A stretch of 38,410 nucleotides of DNA from Opitutaceae bacterium. Lineage in GTDB: Bacteria > Verrucomicrobiota > Verrucomicrobiia > Opitutales > Opitutaceae. The stretch is from positions 1 to 38,410 of the forward strand of contig JACSRI010000167.1 of NCBI GenBank assembly GCA_014879845.1, written 5' to 3'. The position numbers were made by a program, and so were the translations under genes. The notes under the pieces were generated by a model that searched no databases, was not told where the DNA came from, and was given only the letters and a program-made list of their open reading frames with translations. Shown here piece by piece: positions 10,334 to 38,410 of this stretch (position 1 is the stretch's first letter; each line of letters starts with the position of its first letter).

Positions 10334-12262
10334 TCAGCGGGGTGGACGGCGTTTCCCCGCCCGGCTTGAGGCGCTGCCGGGGCGCTTGGCGCGGGAGATG
10401 CGTGGGCGCGGGGCGGTCGTTGCGGACTCCTTGGCAGTCAGGTCGATACGCACATCGTAGTCGCCGGCCTCGGCGTCCTCGGCCCGCGTGCTGGTGGCCC
10501 CGTAGCGGCGGAAGAGTGCGAGCATGGGCAGGTTGTCCTTGCGAACCCGGCCCCAAACCGATGCGAGGCCCCGCCGGCGGGCGACGGCGAGCAGGGCGTC
10601 CATCAGCGTCGAAGCCATGCCGCACCGGCGCTTGGTCTCGCGCACCACGAAAGCCACCTCGGCGGACTTGCCGTCCGGGTCGAGGTAATAGCGCCCGACG
10701 GCGTGGATCATCTCGCGTGGTCCCTGCGTCTCGAAGATCGCGAGCGCGAGATCGCGCGACTGGTCGACATTGACCAGGTCGTAGGCGCGCTCGCGCGGCA
10801 TGCGCGTGACCGCATACCCATAGCGCATCTGGATCGTCTCAAGCGTGTGCGAGTAGAAGAACTCCTGCAGCCGCCGGATGTCGGAGGGGTGCAGCGGGCG
10901 CAGCAGGTAGCGGCCGTCCGCCAGGGTGAGGCGCTGCGACTCGAGGTCGCCGAGGTCGCCGACCGGCCGCGGGGAGCTGCGCTGGTAGGCCGGCACGAGT
11001 CCCGTGGCGACCGCCTCGCGCAACAGGTCGTCTCGATACTTTGGATGCGCCACCTGGATGAGTTCGAGGGCCCGTTCGCGCAGGCTGCGGCCGCGCAGCG
11101 TGGCGACGCCGTACTCGGTGACGATGTAATGCACGTCGCCGCGCGAGGTCACCACGCCCGCGCCCTCGCGCAGGTGGGGCACGATGCGCGAGGTCCTGCC
11201 GTCGGCCGAGGTCGAGGGCAGGGCGATGATCGGCAGGCCGCCGCGGCTCATCGTCGCGCCGCGGATGAAGTCCACCTGGCCGCCGAGCCCGCTGTGGAAC
11301 CCGTGGCCGAGCGGATCGGCCACGACCTGGCCGGAGAGATCGAGCTCGAGGGCGGCGGTCACTGAAACCATCCGGTCGTTGCGCGCGATCACCAGCGGGT
11401 TGTTGACATATTCCGTCGGGTGAAACTCCACGTGCGGGTTGTCGTGGACGTAGTCATACAGCTCCTGCGTCCCGAGGCAGAAGGAGGTGATCGTCTTGCC
11501 GGTGTGCAGGCTCTTGCGGCGATTGTTGATCGCGCCGCTGCGCAGGAGGGGCAGATAGCCGTCGCCGAGCAACTCGCTGTGCACGCCCAAGTCCCTGTGG
11601 CCCGCGAGCGCGGCGAGCACCGCGTCGGGCAGCGCGCCGATGCCGACGCGCAGCGTGCTGCCGTCCTCGATCAACTGCGCGACGTAGCGGCCGATCGTCT
11701 CCATCTCGGGCGTGCCGCCGACCGGCGGCACGGCGACGAGCGGCTCGTCGTAGGGCAGGAACGCGTCGATGCGGTCGACATGGATAAAGCTCTGCCCGTG
11801 CGTGCGCGGCATGCGCGGGTTGAGCTGCGCGATCACCACGCGCGCGGCGCGGCACGCGGCCGAGACCACGTCGACGCTCACGCCGAGCGAGCAGTAGCCG
11901 TGTACGTCCGGCGGAGTCACCTGCACGAGCGCGGCATCGAGCGGCAACACGCCGTCGAGGAAGAGTCCCGGGATCTCGGAGAGAAAACACGGCGTGTAGT
12001 CGGCGCGGCCCTCGCGCACGGCGTCCCCGAGCGTCGGCCCGTGCACGAAGGTATTCACCACGAACGTATCCGCCAGGGCAGGATCCAGCCAGGGCGTGGG
12101 GCCGGCGGTGTGGACGTGGACGAGTTCGACGTCCTTGAGTTGCGGCGCCGCCGCCACGAGCGAGCGCATGAGCGCGTGCGGGCAACCGGCGCCCGAGCCG
12201 ACGAAGACGCGGCTGCCGGGGCGGATCAGCTTTTCCCAGTCGTAGGGTGTCAGCTCGACCAT
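10334..12262 (-). CDS. Acetyl-CoA hydrolase/transferase fused to GNAT acetyltransferase
   Basis: 642 residues. Residues about 1-435 match the acetyl-CoA hydrolase / 4-hydroxybutyrate CoA-transferase family: GSGAGCPHALM, VSPPDVHGYCSLG-like VTPPDVHGYCSLGVSVD, GIGALPDAVLAAL, LGDGYLPLLRSGAINN, HPTEYVNNPLVIARND and a late IVTEYGVATLRGRSLRERA. Residues about 450-610 are a GNAT domain (YLLRPLHPSDIRRLQEFFY; VAFVVRETKRRCGMASTLMD as the acetyl-CoA loop, with RRCGMA in place of the usual R/Q-x-x-G-x-G/A). The tail is Arg/Lys-rich. It may move CoA between short acids, with the GNAT part sensing or using acetyl-CoA, for example for lysine acetylation; that link is inference. It lies near a PocR-AraC regulator and nifJ, consistent with fermentation. 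Confidence 0.88.
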   Translation of the reverse strand: MVELTPYDWEKLIRPGSRVFVGSGAGCPHALMRSLVAAAPQLKDVELVHVHTAGPTPWLDPALADTFVVNTFVHGPTLGDAVREGRADYTPCFLSEIPGLFLDGVLPLDAALVQVTPPDVHGYCSLGVSVDVVSAACRAARVVIAQLNPRMPRTHGQSFIHVDRIDAFLPYDEPLVAVPPVGGTPEMETIGRYVAQLIEDGSTLRVGIGALPDAVLAALAGHRDLGVHSELLGDGYLPLLRSGAINNRRKSLHTGKTITSFCLGTQELYDYVHDNPHVEFHPTEYVNNPLVIARNDRMVSVTAALELDLSGQVVADPLGHGFHSGLGGQVDFIRGATMSRGGLPIIALPSTSADGRTSRIVPHLREGAGVVTSRGDVHYIVTEYGVATLRGRSLRERALELIQVAHPKYRDDLLREAVATGLVPAYQRSSPRPVGDLGDLESQRLTLADGRYLLRPLHPSDIRRLQEFFYSHTLETIQMRYGYAVTRMPRERAYDLVNVDQSRDLALAIFETQGPREMIHAVGRYYLDPDGKSAEVAFVVRETKRRCGMASTLMDALLAVARRRGLASVWGRVRKDNLPMLALFRRYGATSTRAEDAEAGDYDVRIDLTAKESATTAPRPRISRAKRPGSASSRAGKRRPPR

Positions 12263-18974: not shown

Positions 18975-20255
18975 TCAGGCGTAGGGCAGCGGGAAACGGC
19001 TGCACAGATCGAGCACCTTGGCCTTGGCCGCGGACCGGGCCTCCTCGCTCTCCGGGGCCTTGAGCACGGTGTCGATGGCATCGGCGATGACGTCCATCTC
19101 CGCCTCGCGCAGACCGCGCGTGGTCACCGCCGGCGTGCCGAGCCGCACGCCGCTGGCTTGGAACGGGCTGCGGGTCTCAAACGGCACGGTGTTCTTGTTC
19201 GTCGTGATGTTGGCCAGGTCGAGCGCCTCCTGGGCCTTCTTGGCCGTGAGGTCGGGCAGGTTGTGGCGCAGGTCGACGAGCATGAGGTGGTTGTCTGTGC
19301 CGCCCGATACGATCTTGTAGCCGCGCTTGACCATGGCGGCGGCGAGCGCCCGGGCGTTGGCCACGATCTGCTTCTGGTAGGCGATGAACTCGGGCTTCAT
19401 CGCCTCGAGGAAACACACGGCCTTGGCCGCGATCACGTGCATGAGCGGGCCGCCCTGGCCGCCGGGGAACATGGCGGAGTCGAGGGCCTTGGCGTGCTGG
19501 GCGCGGCAGAGGATGAGACCGCCGCGCGGGCCGCGCAGGGTCTTGTGCGTGGTCGTGGTGACGAAGTCCGCGTGCGGCACCGGCGACGGGTGGATACCCG
19601 CGGCGACGAGGCCGGCGATGTGCGCGATGTCGGCGAAGAGCAGGGCGCCGACGCTGCGTGCGATCTCGCCCATGCGCGCGAAGTCGATCGTGCGCGAGTA
19701 GGCGCTGGCGCCGACGGTGATCATCTTCGGCTTCTCGCGCTGCGCGACGGCGGCGAGTTCGTCGTAGTCGATCAGGCCGGTGTCCTCGCGCACGCCGTAC
19801 TGGACAAACTGGTACAGCTTGCCGGAAAAGTTCGCCGGGTTGCCGTGCGTGAGATGGCCGCCGTGGGAGAGGTTCATGCCCAGGACCTTGTCGCCGGGCT
19901 GGAGTGTCGAGGTGTAGACGGCGAAGTTGGCCTGCGAGCCGGAGTGCGGCTGGACGTTGGCATGCTCGGCGCCGAAGAGTTTCTTCGCCCGTTCGATGGC
20001 GAGCGTCTCGACCTGGTCGACGAACTCGCAGCCACCGTACCAACGCTTGGCCGGGTAGCCCTCGGCGTACTTGTTGGTCAGCACGCTGCCCTGGGCCTCC
20101 ATCACGGCCGGGAGCGTGAAGTTTTCCGAGGCGATGAGCTCGATGTGCGTCTGCTGGCGCTTGAGCTCGCGGCCGATCGCGGCGCTGATCTCGGGGTCGA
20201 CCTGGGCGAGGGCGCCGGCGTTGAGGAAGGAGGTGGCGGCTTGGGCGGTGGACAT
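18975..20255 (-). CDS. glyA: Serine hydroxymethyltransferase
   Basis: 426 residues from the ATG at 20255 ([12 protein letters not shown]). PLP enzyme converting serine and tetrahydrofolate to glycine and 5,10-methylene-tetrahydrofolate. Signatures: [24 protein letters not shown], the PLP segment [15 protein letters not shown] with the Schiff-base Lys, and TPAVTTRGL near the C-terminus. Length and motifs are standard. It ends at a strong terminator and, with purD and the gcvP gene in the same window, points to glycine/one-carbon and purine supply. The start is preceded by a C/T-rich tract, not a Shine-Dalgarno. Confidence 0.97.
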
Positions 20256-20404
20256 GGATCGGAAGGGAAAATGGACGCTGCTAAAGAGGACGCCGGCGGG
20301 CGCGGAGTCCACTGTGATTCTTGGAGTCGTTCAGATTCCAGCGACCGCGCGGCGGTTGGCCGGGTGGCCTCACTCGGCGTGCCGGCTGCGCGGCGGGTCG
20401 AGAC

Positions 20405-27735: not shown

Positions 27736-29346
27736 TCAGCTTCGTCTCGCGGAAAACACGACGGACGCACGCTGCGGCCGGTCGGGCGGGCGATGCCAAA
27801 TCACCTGCCAGAGATTGCCGTCGAGCGACGCGGCCCAGCGTTCGATGGCTGCGAGTTCCGCCGTGCCGCCGTCGCGCTGGGGGTAGACGACGGCGACGAG
27901 TACGCCGCCGCGCCGCAGAACGGACAATGCCGCCGCAAACGCCGCCGTCGTCGACTCCGGGCGCGTGGCGACGGACGAGTTCGAGCCTGGCAGGTGCCCG
28001 AGATTGGCCACGACGGCGCCCACGCGCCCGCGCCAGGCCGGAGCGATCAGCTCGCCCAGGCCTGCGTGGTTGGCGCAGCGCAGATCGACCGGTGTCTCGC
28101 AGCCCTCGCGTGCGAGCCGGCGGCGGGTCGCCTCGAGCGCGGCAGGCTGGATGTCGATGGAAAGCACGGCGCCGTCCGCACCGACCGCCTGCGCGAGCGC
28201 GTGCGTGTCGGCGCCGTTGCCAGCCGTGAGGTCGACCGCGAAGTCGCCGGGCGCGAGTGCCGCGAGCGTGAGCGCCCGGGCCACGGCGACCGCGTCCCAA
28301 TGTCCGCTCGCGTCGCCCCTCGCGCGCGGCGGCGTGAAGCGCCGCGGCTCGGTCTCCGTCGGCAGCGGCGCTCCCGAGGTGAGATGATCGGCCAGCCGGC
28401 GTGCGAGCCACGGTACGATCACGTAGCCCTGCGAGCCGAAGCCGTTGAAGGCGTGGAGGCGCCCGGAGTCGTCGACCGCGCCGACGAGCGGCCTTGTATC
28501 CATCGTGGCGGCACGCACGCCGCAGGCCTGGGCGACCACCTCCCAGGGCGTGGCGAGATGGCGGGCGAGAAACGCCTCGAGTTCGGCGCGCCCGTCCGCC
28601 GTGGTCTCGCGCATCATGTCACCGGGGACCTTGGTGCCGCCGCACGACCAGAGACCGTCGCCCATCGGCGCGAGGTGATGCCCGCAGACGTAGGCCGAGT
28701 GCGCCTCGAGCGCCGGGGCACGCACGAGCAGCGACTCGCCGCGCACCGGGCGCAGGGGCAGGGGACGACCGGCCGCCGGAGCCAGGTCATCGATGCCACC
28801 CGCGAGGACGACATGGTCCGCGTCCCACTCGTCGGGACAGCAGCGCTGGGCGACGAGGTCGCCCGCGGCTCGCGCCTCCGACCGCAGCACGTCGACCAGG
28901 CGGCGCGCGTCGAGCGCGCCACCACCGCCGATCGCGACGCCGCCGTGGCCGGCGCCGCGCCAACCCGCTGGCAGCTCGGCGAGGTCGCGCACCGCGAACC
29001 CCGCGGCCACGATCGCTGGGATTCGACGCTCGAAGGCGGCCTGTTCGTCCGCGGTCGCAAACGTCCGCACCACCTCGACCGGGCGCAGCACGGTGGATCC
29101 GGTCGCGCGGGCGATCTCTCCATAAGCTTCATGGGCCGCCGCGAAGGTTTCCGCCGCGCGCCACGCGAGCGTGCAGCGCTGGCCGCGCACGGGGTTGAGC
29201 AGGCCCACGGCCGCCTCGCTCGCGCCCGGATGCGACGGGTCGTGCGCCACGGCCACGCGCAGGCCGGGCCCGCGCAACTCGCGCGCGAGCAACAGGCCGG
29301 CGATCCCGGCACCGAGAATGAGCACGTCGACGTGGCGCTCCGACAT
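27736..29346 (-). CDS. FAD oxidoreductase fused to MnmM (YtqB)-like methyltransferase
   Basis: 536 residues from the ATG at 29346 (MSERHVDVLILGAG). Residues 1-325 are a DAO-family flavoprotein: GAGIAG (12-17), VGLLNPVRGQR (47-57) and a C-terminal GVRAATMDTRPLVGAV (276-291) with FNGFGSQGYVIVPWLA (300-315), the pattern seen in MnmC(o). Residues about 350-536 are a class I methyltransferase of the YtqB/MnmM type: VDLTAGNGADT (371-381), IDIQ (397-400), NLGHLPG (448-454), VAVVYP (484-489). In E. coli MnmC the oxidoreductase converts cmnm5U to nm5U and an unrelated methyltransferase then makes mnm5U; B. subtilis uses MnmM for the second step. Here the order is reversed and the partner is MnmM-like, so a two-step wobble-uridine enzyme is inferred. 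It is divergent from the GNAT gene. Confidence 0.85.
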   Translation of the reverse strand: MSERHVDVLILGAGIAGLLLARELRGPGLRVAVAHDPSHPGASEAAVGLLNPVRGQRCTLAWRAAETFAAAHEAYGEIARATGSTVLRPVEVVRTFATADEQAAFERRIPAIVAAGFAVRDLAELPAGWRGAGHGGVAIGGGGALDARRLVDVLRSEARAAGDLVAQRCCPDEWDADHVVLAGGIDDLAPAAGRPLPLRPVRGESLLVRAPALEAHSAYVCGHHLAPMGDGLWSCGGTKVPGDMMRETTADGRAELEAFLARHLATPWEVVAQACGVRAATMDTRPLVGAVDDSGRLHAFNGFGSQGYVIVPWLARRLADHLTSGAPLPTETEPRRFTPPRARGDASGHWDAVAVARALTLAALAPGDFAVDLTAGNGADTHALAQAVGADGAVLSIDIQPAALEATRRRLAREGCETPVDLRCANHAGLGELIAPAWRGRVGAVVANLGHLPGSNSSVATRPESTTAAFAAALSVLRRGGVLVAVVYPQRDGGTAELAAIERWAASLDGNLWQVIWHRPPDRPQRASVVFSARRS

Positions 29347-37035: not shown

Positions 37036-38410
37036 TCAGCCGTGCGCCTCCATGCCCACGCAGGAGCACACGAGGTTGCGGTCGCCGTAGACGTTGTCGA
37101 TGCGGGCGACGGCGGGCCAGAACTTGTGCTGGCGCGTCCATGGGGCCGGGAAGGCCGCGGTCTCGCGCGGGTAGGGGCGTGCCCAGGAGTCCGATACGAC
37201 GACGTCGGCCGGGTGCGGCGCGTTCTTCAGCGGGTTGTTCGCCCGGTCGAACGTGCCGGACTCGATCGCCTTCATCTCCGCGCCGATGGCGATGAGCGCG
37301 TCGCAGAGGCGGTCGAGTTCCTCGATCGATTCGCTCTCGGTCGGCTCGATCATGATCGTGCCGGGCACGGGCCATGAGATCGTGGGTGCGTGGAAGCCGT
37401 AGTCCATGAGCCGCTTCGCCACGTCCTCGACCTCGATGCCGGCGCGTTGCTTCCAGGCGCGGAAATCGAGGATGAACTCATGTGCCACCAACTCGCCGCG
37501 TCCGCGGTAGAGCACCTGGAAGTGCGAGGCGAGGCGCCGAGCCATGTAGTTGGCGTTGAGGATGGCGTACTTCGTCGCCTCGGTCAGGCCGTCTGCGCCC
37601 ATCATGCGGATATAGGCCCAGGAGATGAGCACGACATTCGCGCTCCCCCAGGGCGCCGCCGCGACCGGGCCGATCGCTCCACGACCGGCGGGCGTGGGTG
37701 ACACGACGGGATGGCCGGGGAGGAACGGTGCGAGGTGCGCGGCCACCCCGATCGGGCCCACCCCTGGGCCGCCGCCGCCGTGCGGGATGCAAAAGGTCTT
37801 GTGCAAGTTGAGGTGGCAGACGTCGGCGCCGATGTGGCCGGGCGAGGTCAGGCCGACCTGCGCGTTCATGTTCGCGCCGTCCATGTAGACCTGGCCGCCA
37901 TGCTCGTGGATGATCGCGCAGATCTCGCGGATCGTATCCTCGAAGACGCCGTGGGTGGATGGATACGTCACCATGAGCGCGGCGAGCTCGGCCGCGTGCG
38001 CCTGGGCCTTGGCGCGGAGGTCGGCCACGTCGATGTTGCCCATCGTGTCGCAGGCGACGGGCACCACGCGCATGCCGGCCATGACGGCGGAGGCGGGGTT
38101 GGTGCCGTGGGCGGAGACGGGGATGAGGCAGACGGTGCGGCCGCCCTGGCCGCGGCTCTGGTGCCAGCCGCGGATGGCGAGCAGGCCCGCGTATTCACCG
38201 GCCGAGCCGGCGTTGGGCTGGAGCGAGACGGCGGCGAAGCCGGTGATCTCGGCGAGCCAGGCCTCGAGATCCGCGAAGACCTTGGCATAGCCGGCCGCCT
38301 GCGAGCGCGGCGCGAACGGGTGGATCCTGGCGAATTCCGGCCACGTCACGGGAAGCATCTCGGCCGTGGCGTTGAGCTTCATCGTGCACGAGCCGAGCGG
38401 GATCATCGAG
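37036..38410 (-). CDS. gcvP: Glycine dehydrogenase (decarboxylating), P-protein, 5' end cut by window
   Basis: C-terminal 458 codons of a P-protein of about 950 residues; the frame is open through 38410, so the first half lies outside. The P-protein decarboxylates glycine in the glycine cleavage system, passing an aminomethyl group to GcvH. Visible: [14 protein letters not shown] at the cut edge, [10 protein letters not shown], the PLP-lysine motif [18 protein letters not shown] and [16 protein letters not shown]. The C-terminal end (SCVGMEAHG) is typical. It is intact for its visible part. With glyA it interconverts serine, glycine and one-carbon units. Confidence 0.97.

Follow-up and report, generated by a model that had tools for sequence, protein, structure and literature searches.

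A fused FAD oxidoreductase and MnmM-type methyltransferase from an Opitutaceae bacterium, a candidate two-domain enzyme for the tRNA wobble uridine

Identification of a gene encoding an FAD oxidoreductase–MnmM fusion

The window analysed was a 38,410-nt stretch of DNA from an Opitutaceae bacterium. An ORF on its minus strand, reading from an ATG at 29346 to a stop codon at 27736–27738, encoded a protein of 536 aa (Table 1). Pfam detected a DAO domain (PF01266, residues 7–320, 91.1 bits, E 1.3e-25) followed by PF06962 (residues 394–531, 103.1 bits, E 1.5e-29), and no PF05430 (MnmC2) in this protein. The NCBIfam profile for MnmM, NF053511, scored 140.8 bits (143.8 in the genome search), narrowly above its cut-off of 135. 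These matches bore out the first-pass annotation, which had read the protein as an FAD oxidoreductase joined to a YtqB/MnmM-type methyltransferase, and GAGIAG and FNGFGSQGY lay at the residues it had named; GNGADT was at 376–381. It had also claimed that the order was reversed relative to E. coli MnmC, and this was confirmed, the oxidase being N-terminal and an MnmM-type, not a PF05430, methyltransferase being C-terminal.

Table 1. Position of the fusion gene and of its features in the window
Feature	Position	Strand	Basis or remark
FAD oxidoreductase–MnmM fusion, whole gene, 536 aa	27736..29346	minus	ORF, Pfam, NCBIfam, AlphaFold2
DAO-type FAD oxidoreductase half, residues 7–320	28387..29328	minus	PF01266
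GAGIAG, FAD-binding, residues 12–17	29296..29313	minus	G12, G14, A16 and G17 invariant in the 25-row fusion alignment
FNGFGSQGY, residues 300–308	28423..28449	minus	G302, G304, S305 and G307 invariant in the 25-row fusion alignment
Linker between the halves, residues 339–348	28303..28332	minus	pLDDT <50
MnmM/YtqB-type methyltransferase half, residues 353–532	27751..28290	minus	NF053511; PF06962 at 394–531
NLGHLPG, residues 448–454	27985..28005	minus	MnmM N101 kept, Y104 replaced by H
YPQR, residues 488–491	27874..27885	minus	MnmM Y141 kept, G143 replaced by Q, H144 by R

An AlphaFold2 model of the protein had a mean pLDDT of 88.8, and fold comparison matched its methyltransferase half with the crystal structure of MnmM (8h0s_A, TM 0.93 by target length). 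The same domain order in a single frame was found in other genomes, which argues against an assembly artefact.

The window also contained a gene for an acetyl-CoA hydrolase/transferase fused to a GNAT acetyltransferase domain (10337–12262, minus strand). Two genes of glycine and one-carbon metabolism, encoding serine hydroxymethyltransferase (18978–20312, minus) and the glycine cleavage P-protein (37039–38406, minus), were in the same window and did not adjoin the fusion gene.

Distribution of the fusion and of the adjacent gene pair

In a set of 141 genomes, consisting of the genome of origin and its relatives, both halves were found in one frame in 14. A scan of the family Opitutaceae detected the fusion in 26 of 252 genomes and 8 of 49 genera, two of the matches (G260 and G265) being partial. 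A scan of named genomes with the fusion protein alone as query found no relative. Named relatives of the FAD half were obtained with a profile built mainly from fusions, so fusions are over-represented among them. For the best 80 of 304 such loci, MnmM was fused in 24, adjacent downstream on the same strand in 35, farther away in one and absent from the stretch in 17, and three loci were incomplete. In all but one of the 35 adjacent loci of this best 80, the MnmM match started no more than 40 nt from where the FAD frame ended. Five of the fused loci came from outside Verrucomicrobiota, four of them from Mariprofundus and one from a gammaproteobacterial MAG.

The tree of the FAD family required four changes between the fused and split states, which makes a repeated origin or a secondary loss of the fusion probable. 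Both activities of E. coli MnmC are reported to function when expressed apart (PMC3936742), so fused, adjacent and separate genes would all be workable.

Association of the FAD half with MnmM

MnmM scored above cut-off in 48 of the 141 genomes, and all 48 had a match to the FAD half at E 0.001 (compared by hand). A profile of the fusion was then run against 387 genomes of the phylum, the three best candidates per genome being scored, and 83 genomes matched at 1e-20. The MnmM half was present in 62 genomes, every one of which also had the FAD half; 21 had the FAD half alone and 304 had neither (counted by hand). Two genomes, G298 and G299, are possible exceptions to the partnership: each had a free MnmM and no FAD match at E 1e-25, nor was one found in the 10 and 8 kb, respectively, around MnmM. 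These two stand-alone MnmM genes of genus g8 (L287:4680–5453 and L288:3621–4310, both minus) had intact NLGYLP and YRGH motifs.

Computation shows both domains, the order in which they lie, and that in several phyla they are fused, adjacent or present in the same genome. This linkage is evidence of partnership, not of chemistry.

Genes of the U34 pathway

The first-pass annotation had proposed to look in the genome for mnmE and mnmG, and both were present above the profile cut-offs, mnmE directly before mnmG. MnmG was above cut-off in 127 of the 141 genomes and MnmE in all 14 fusion genomes. The absence of another mnmC, which it had also proposed to check, was borne out: PF05430 had no match at E 0.001 in any of the 14 fusion genomes, that of the window included.

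According to Cho et al. 2023 (PMC9976899), no MnmC(o)-like enzyme had been identified for organisms that have MnmM or, like Bacteroides, an orphan mnmC(m). A more recent review (PMC12548931) names MnmL for this step. Its superfamily profile, TIGR01212, also matches in E. coli and is therefore wider than MnmL. At E 1e-10 it matched in five of the 141 genomes, among them one fusion genome (G019), and had no match in the genome of the window.

Relationship of the FAD half to MnmC(o) and to glycine oxidase

The description of the FAD half as MnmC(o)-like was not decided by sequence. With NCBIfam profiles it scored 68.3 bits for MnmC1 (TIGR03197) and 67.1 bits for ThiO (TIGR02352), both far below the cut-offs of 174.2 and 250.8. 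By fold comparison, glycine oxidase was closest (Z 35.9), with MnmC at Z 32.8, a gap that did not separate the two. Two trees joined the FAD family to the MnmC1 of E. coli and Proteus with a support of 99, but long branches were flagged in the second, and an AU test did not reject the topology joining the family to ThiO-type oxidases (p 0.382); the trees took in only two MnmC1 and one annotated ThiO (Azospirillum). The support of 99 was therefore rejected as proof of MnmC(o) membership. The second tree left out G013DAO (a wrong-strand frame), EcSolA, G040DAO and L128, and 11 further rows were thinned. By curated profile the FAD half is a member of neither MnmC1 nor ThiO; the tree prefers MnmC1 and does not exclude ThiO. 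Sequence alone does not place it with MnmC(o) rather than with glycine oxidase.

The side chain of cmnm5U resembles glycine, and its oxidation by MnmC1 is described as closely analogous to the reaction of glycine oxidase (PMC3648344), so this step calls for a fold of the glycine-oxidase type. The same source reports no significant activity of E. coli MnmC on glycine or sarcosine. R278 of the GVR motif was invariant in 25 aligned fusions, and in PDB alignments it aligned with the AGLRP motif of glycine oxidases.

The glycine oxidases heading the fold matches, the tie between the ThiO and MnmC1 profiles and the unrejected ThiO tree would also suit a ThiO-like oxidase of glycine or a small amine, whose product feeds MnmE–MnmG or another pathway and which has no action on tRNA. 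We consider this improbable. None of the 141 genomes had a protein above the ThiO cut-off, no thiamine family was found among the 12 Pfam-matching ORFs of 20 scanned in the window, and a partnership with MnmM or with MnmC2/MnmD (see below) would be hard to explain without a shared tRNA substrate.

When the FAD-family profile was compared with the PDB, an entry named "Predicted D-Amino Acid Dehydrogenase" (22zt_A) scored 91.9 bits, above MnmC with 85.9 bits. This name may be wrong.

Occurrence of the FAD family with MnmC2/MnmD

The MnmC2/MnmD profile NF033855 was run on 31 of the genomes behind the best 80 of 304 named loci. It scored above cut-off in 11 of 14 genomes without MnmM beside the FAD gene and in none of the 17 in which MnmM was fused to it or next door, although two of the 17 (those of L190 and L192) gave weak matches of 19–23 bits. 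The three remaining genomes of the 14 were those of L238, where the match was broken by stops, and of L229 and L249 (labelled Verrucomicrobia and Opitutales), which had neither MnmM next door nor MnmC2. At L198 an MnmC2 gene immediately preceded the FAD gene; a single-sequence query based on L198 found this arrangement at no other of the 80 named loci.

Two FAD proteins from Bacteroidia (L218 and L244) fell in a clade with those of Methylobacter and Crenothrix, with a support of 98. Members of the Methylobacter/Crenothrix clade adjoin MnmM; the genomes of L218 and L244 carry MnmC2 instead. Close relatives of one oxidase thus occur with two unrelated methyltransferases, which share nm5U34 as substrate.

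Demethylating sarcosine and dimethylglycine oxidases were among the fold matches of the FAD half, and one could imagine that it acts on a different U34 group, e.g. removing a methyl group or undoing the mark in some other way, while MnmM balances it. That the family occurs with one or the other of two unrelated nm5U methyltransferases agrees better with a step ahead of methylation. We know of no counterpart, and regard such a role as very improbable.

Among the 141 genomes, PF05430 matched in 26, of which 24 belonged to the family of the window. Of the 21 FAD-only genomes among the 387 of the phylum, it matched in all six of family f47, in frames of 255–326 aa, in seven of 12 of the window's family (Opitutaceae) and in none of three others. 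Two further FAD-only Opitutaceae, G054 and G081, lacked it, which brings that family to seven of 14. The seven Opitutaceae frames, at 691–732 aa, agreed in length with Tgt fusions that had been read in other genomes. PF05430 was also looked for in 16 genomes with MnmM and matched in two, G298 (a 763-aa frame) and G659 (22.0 bits, equal to the cut-off). Neither methyltransferase was found in seven of the 14 FAD-only genomes of the window's family and in three others.

In some Opitutaceae a queuine tRNA-guanine transglycosylase (Tgt) and a C-terminal MnmC2-like methyltransferase domain were in one chain, which brings two wobble-position activities together. One such frame (L062:1333–3351, minus), checked with Pfam and NCBIfam, scored 487 bits for PF01702, 59 bits for PF05430 and 74 bits for NF033855, the last below its cut-off of 136. 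All five loci that were read (L062, L063, L065, L067 and L071) begin as Tgt, and the Opitutaceae matches were therefore rejected as E. coli-type MnmC; the other loci were judged by frame length. A constant pairing of FAD-only Opitutaceae with the Tgt fusion was also rejected, since PF05430 was found in only seven of the 14 genomes and several genomes with PF05430 had no FAD-half match.

Nineteen FAD-only relatives in the window's family formed one starred clade (L089–L107). Seven of the 14 such genomes checked lacked PF05430 and yielded no MnmM, so the oxidase may work by itself there.

Altered residues in the MnmM-type half

Mutants K11E, D34A, N101A, N101D, Y104A, Y141F and H144A of B. subtilis MnmM are reported to be nearly inactive; K110E is given as insignificant, and Y104F as lowering activity about three-fold, so that about a third is kept (PMC9976899). 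This numbering was carried over through the MnmM of Anoxybacillus, and the comparison covered 99 distinct MnmM-like domains of the fetched loci, 32 of them fused and the fusion protein included. The fusion protein kept D34, N101 and Y141, which are listed as contacting U33/U34 (PMC9976899), and had R at position 11, as did 16 of the 32 fused domains. At four further positions it had H104, S110, Q143 and R144. Position 104 was Y or F in 97 of the 99 domains (30 of the 32 fused), the exceptions being this protein and its nearest relative G013 (R). Position 144 was H in 95 of the 99 (29 of the 32 fused). Positions 110 and 143 varied among fusions, K110 being kept in 18 and G143 in 20 of the 32, and S110 and Q143 occurred elsewhere; K110S and G143Q were therefore dropped as unusual changes.

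The first-pass annotation had named a lack of MnmM active-site residues as grounds for refutation. The outcome was divided, D34, N101 and Y141 being kept but Y104 and H144 being replaced by H and R. It had not remarked that NLGHLPG, by its H, and VVYPQRDGG, by its QR, differ from what is usual in MnmM.

The sister protein in the FAD trees, G013 (support 100 in the first and 98 in the second), had S101, R104, P141 and D144. Conservation of the methyltransferase half relative to the prediction from the FAD half was expressed as z. For the protein of the window the mean z was −0.19 against 23 other fusions, and an overall decay of its methyltransferase half was rejected on this value. The pair with G013 gave z −1.75, and the methyltransferase half of G013 itself z −1.5.

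By profile, the C-terminal half may be called an MnmM-family domain but not a proven MnmM, as the clamp residues Y104 and H144 are not conserved. Since they are altered, methylation by this protein is doubtful; it may be retained by other means, weakened or lost.

One alternative is that the FAD half makes nm5(s2)U34 and the MnmM half serves only as a tRNA-binding scaffold, so that nm5(s2)U would be the end product here. Three things speak for it: the replacement of two nearly constant residues, either of which leaves B. subtilis MnmM almost without activity when changed to alanine; the loss of N101, Y104, Y141 and H144 together in the sister protein; and the likeness of this pair in the methyltransferase half, which falls somewhat short of that expected from their FAD halves. 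Against it are the three contact residues that are kept, the NF053511 score above cut-off and the ordinary mean z against the 23 fusions. Moreover, histidine could stack like tyrosine, the Y104F mutant is still partly active, and another fusion (G269) has R144 with the rest intact, S110 and Q143 also being found in other fusions. We hold the scaffold role to be a tentative possibility, though not the reading we favour.

Proposed function

The reading we favour, and think probable, is that the fusion protein is a two-domain enzyme for the tRNA wobble uridine, in which the FAD half converts cmnm5(s2)U34 to nm5(s2)U34 and the MnmM half converts this to mnm5(s2)U34. We infer what the FAD half acts on, and the pathway, as follows. 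U34 would first receive a carboxymethylaminomethyl group from MnmE–MnmG. Oxidation of the C–N bond in this glycine-like group by the N-terminal FAD domain would then remove the carboxymethyl part and leave nm5(s2)U34, and the C-terminal MnmM domain would transfer a methyl group from SAM to give mnm5(s2)U34. The altered U34-holding residues make the methyl step uncertain for this particular protein, which may release nm5U34. The first-pass annotation had proposed an enzyme for the whole conversion of cmnm5(s2)U to mnm5(s2)U; the strong linkage of the halves in other genomes agrees with this, and the altered clamp makes its last step doubtful for this protein.

We regard the FAD half as a candidate for the MnmC(o)-like enzyme that has been missing, and the pattern of occurrence with MnmM or MnmC2 fits an oxidase of cmnm5U34 to nm5U34. 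With more reserve, we lean towards a wider view. The FAD family, separate from the known MnmC(o), would be the missing cmnm5U34 oxidase of Verrucomicrobiota, Zetaproteobacteria, some Gammaproteobacteria and Bacteroidota; it would swap partners (MnmM fused or adjacent, free MnmD, and the Tgt–MnmC2-like chain in some Opitutaceae), and the lineage of the window would be losing or changing the methyl step.

The family is a concrete candidate for this step in genomes where TIGR01212 is almost absent (5/141). If the proposal is true, the same two-step enzyme has been assembled with an unrelated methyltransferase and in reverse order, and the fusions would let the loss or change of the second step be followed. 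Our literature search found no published description of an FAD–MnmM fusion; outside its reach was Jaroch et al. 2024, the abstract of which reportedly mentions fusion proteins and alternate arrangements.

Comparison with known systems

Glycine oxidase ThiO is the closest solved fold to the FAD half, but the FAD half scores only 67.1 bits against the ThiO cut-off of 250.8 and no thiamine family was among the scanned ORFs of the window. The MnmL–MnmM pair of Bacilli resembles the arrangement described here in that MnmM directly follows its partner, with overlaps of 4 nt (Anoxybacillus record) and 1 nt (E. faecalis record). The partner in Bacilli, however, is a TIGR01212 radical-SAM protein, a family with no match at E 1e-10 in 136 of the 141 genomes, that of the window included.

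B. subtilis MnmM (YtqB) is resembled by the methyltransferase half, which is above the MnmM cut-off and has the same fold (TM 0.93 by target length), but which is fused to an FAD oxidase and has Y104, K110, G143 and H144 replaced. Unlike E. coli MnmC, the fusion has the reversed domain order, a methyltransferase of the MnmM and not the MnmC2 (PF05430) family, and an FAD half far below the MnmC1 cut-off. Like E. coli MnmC, it carries both an FAD oxidase and a SAM-dependent methyltransferase for U34 on a single polypeptide, and its FAD half shares the MnmC1 fold (Z 32.8).
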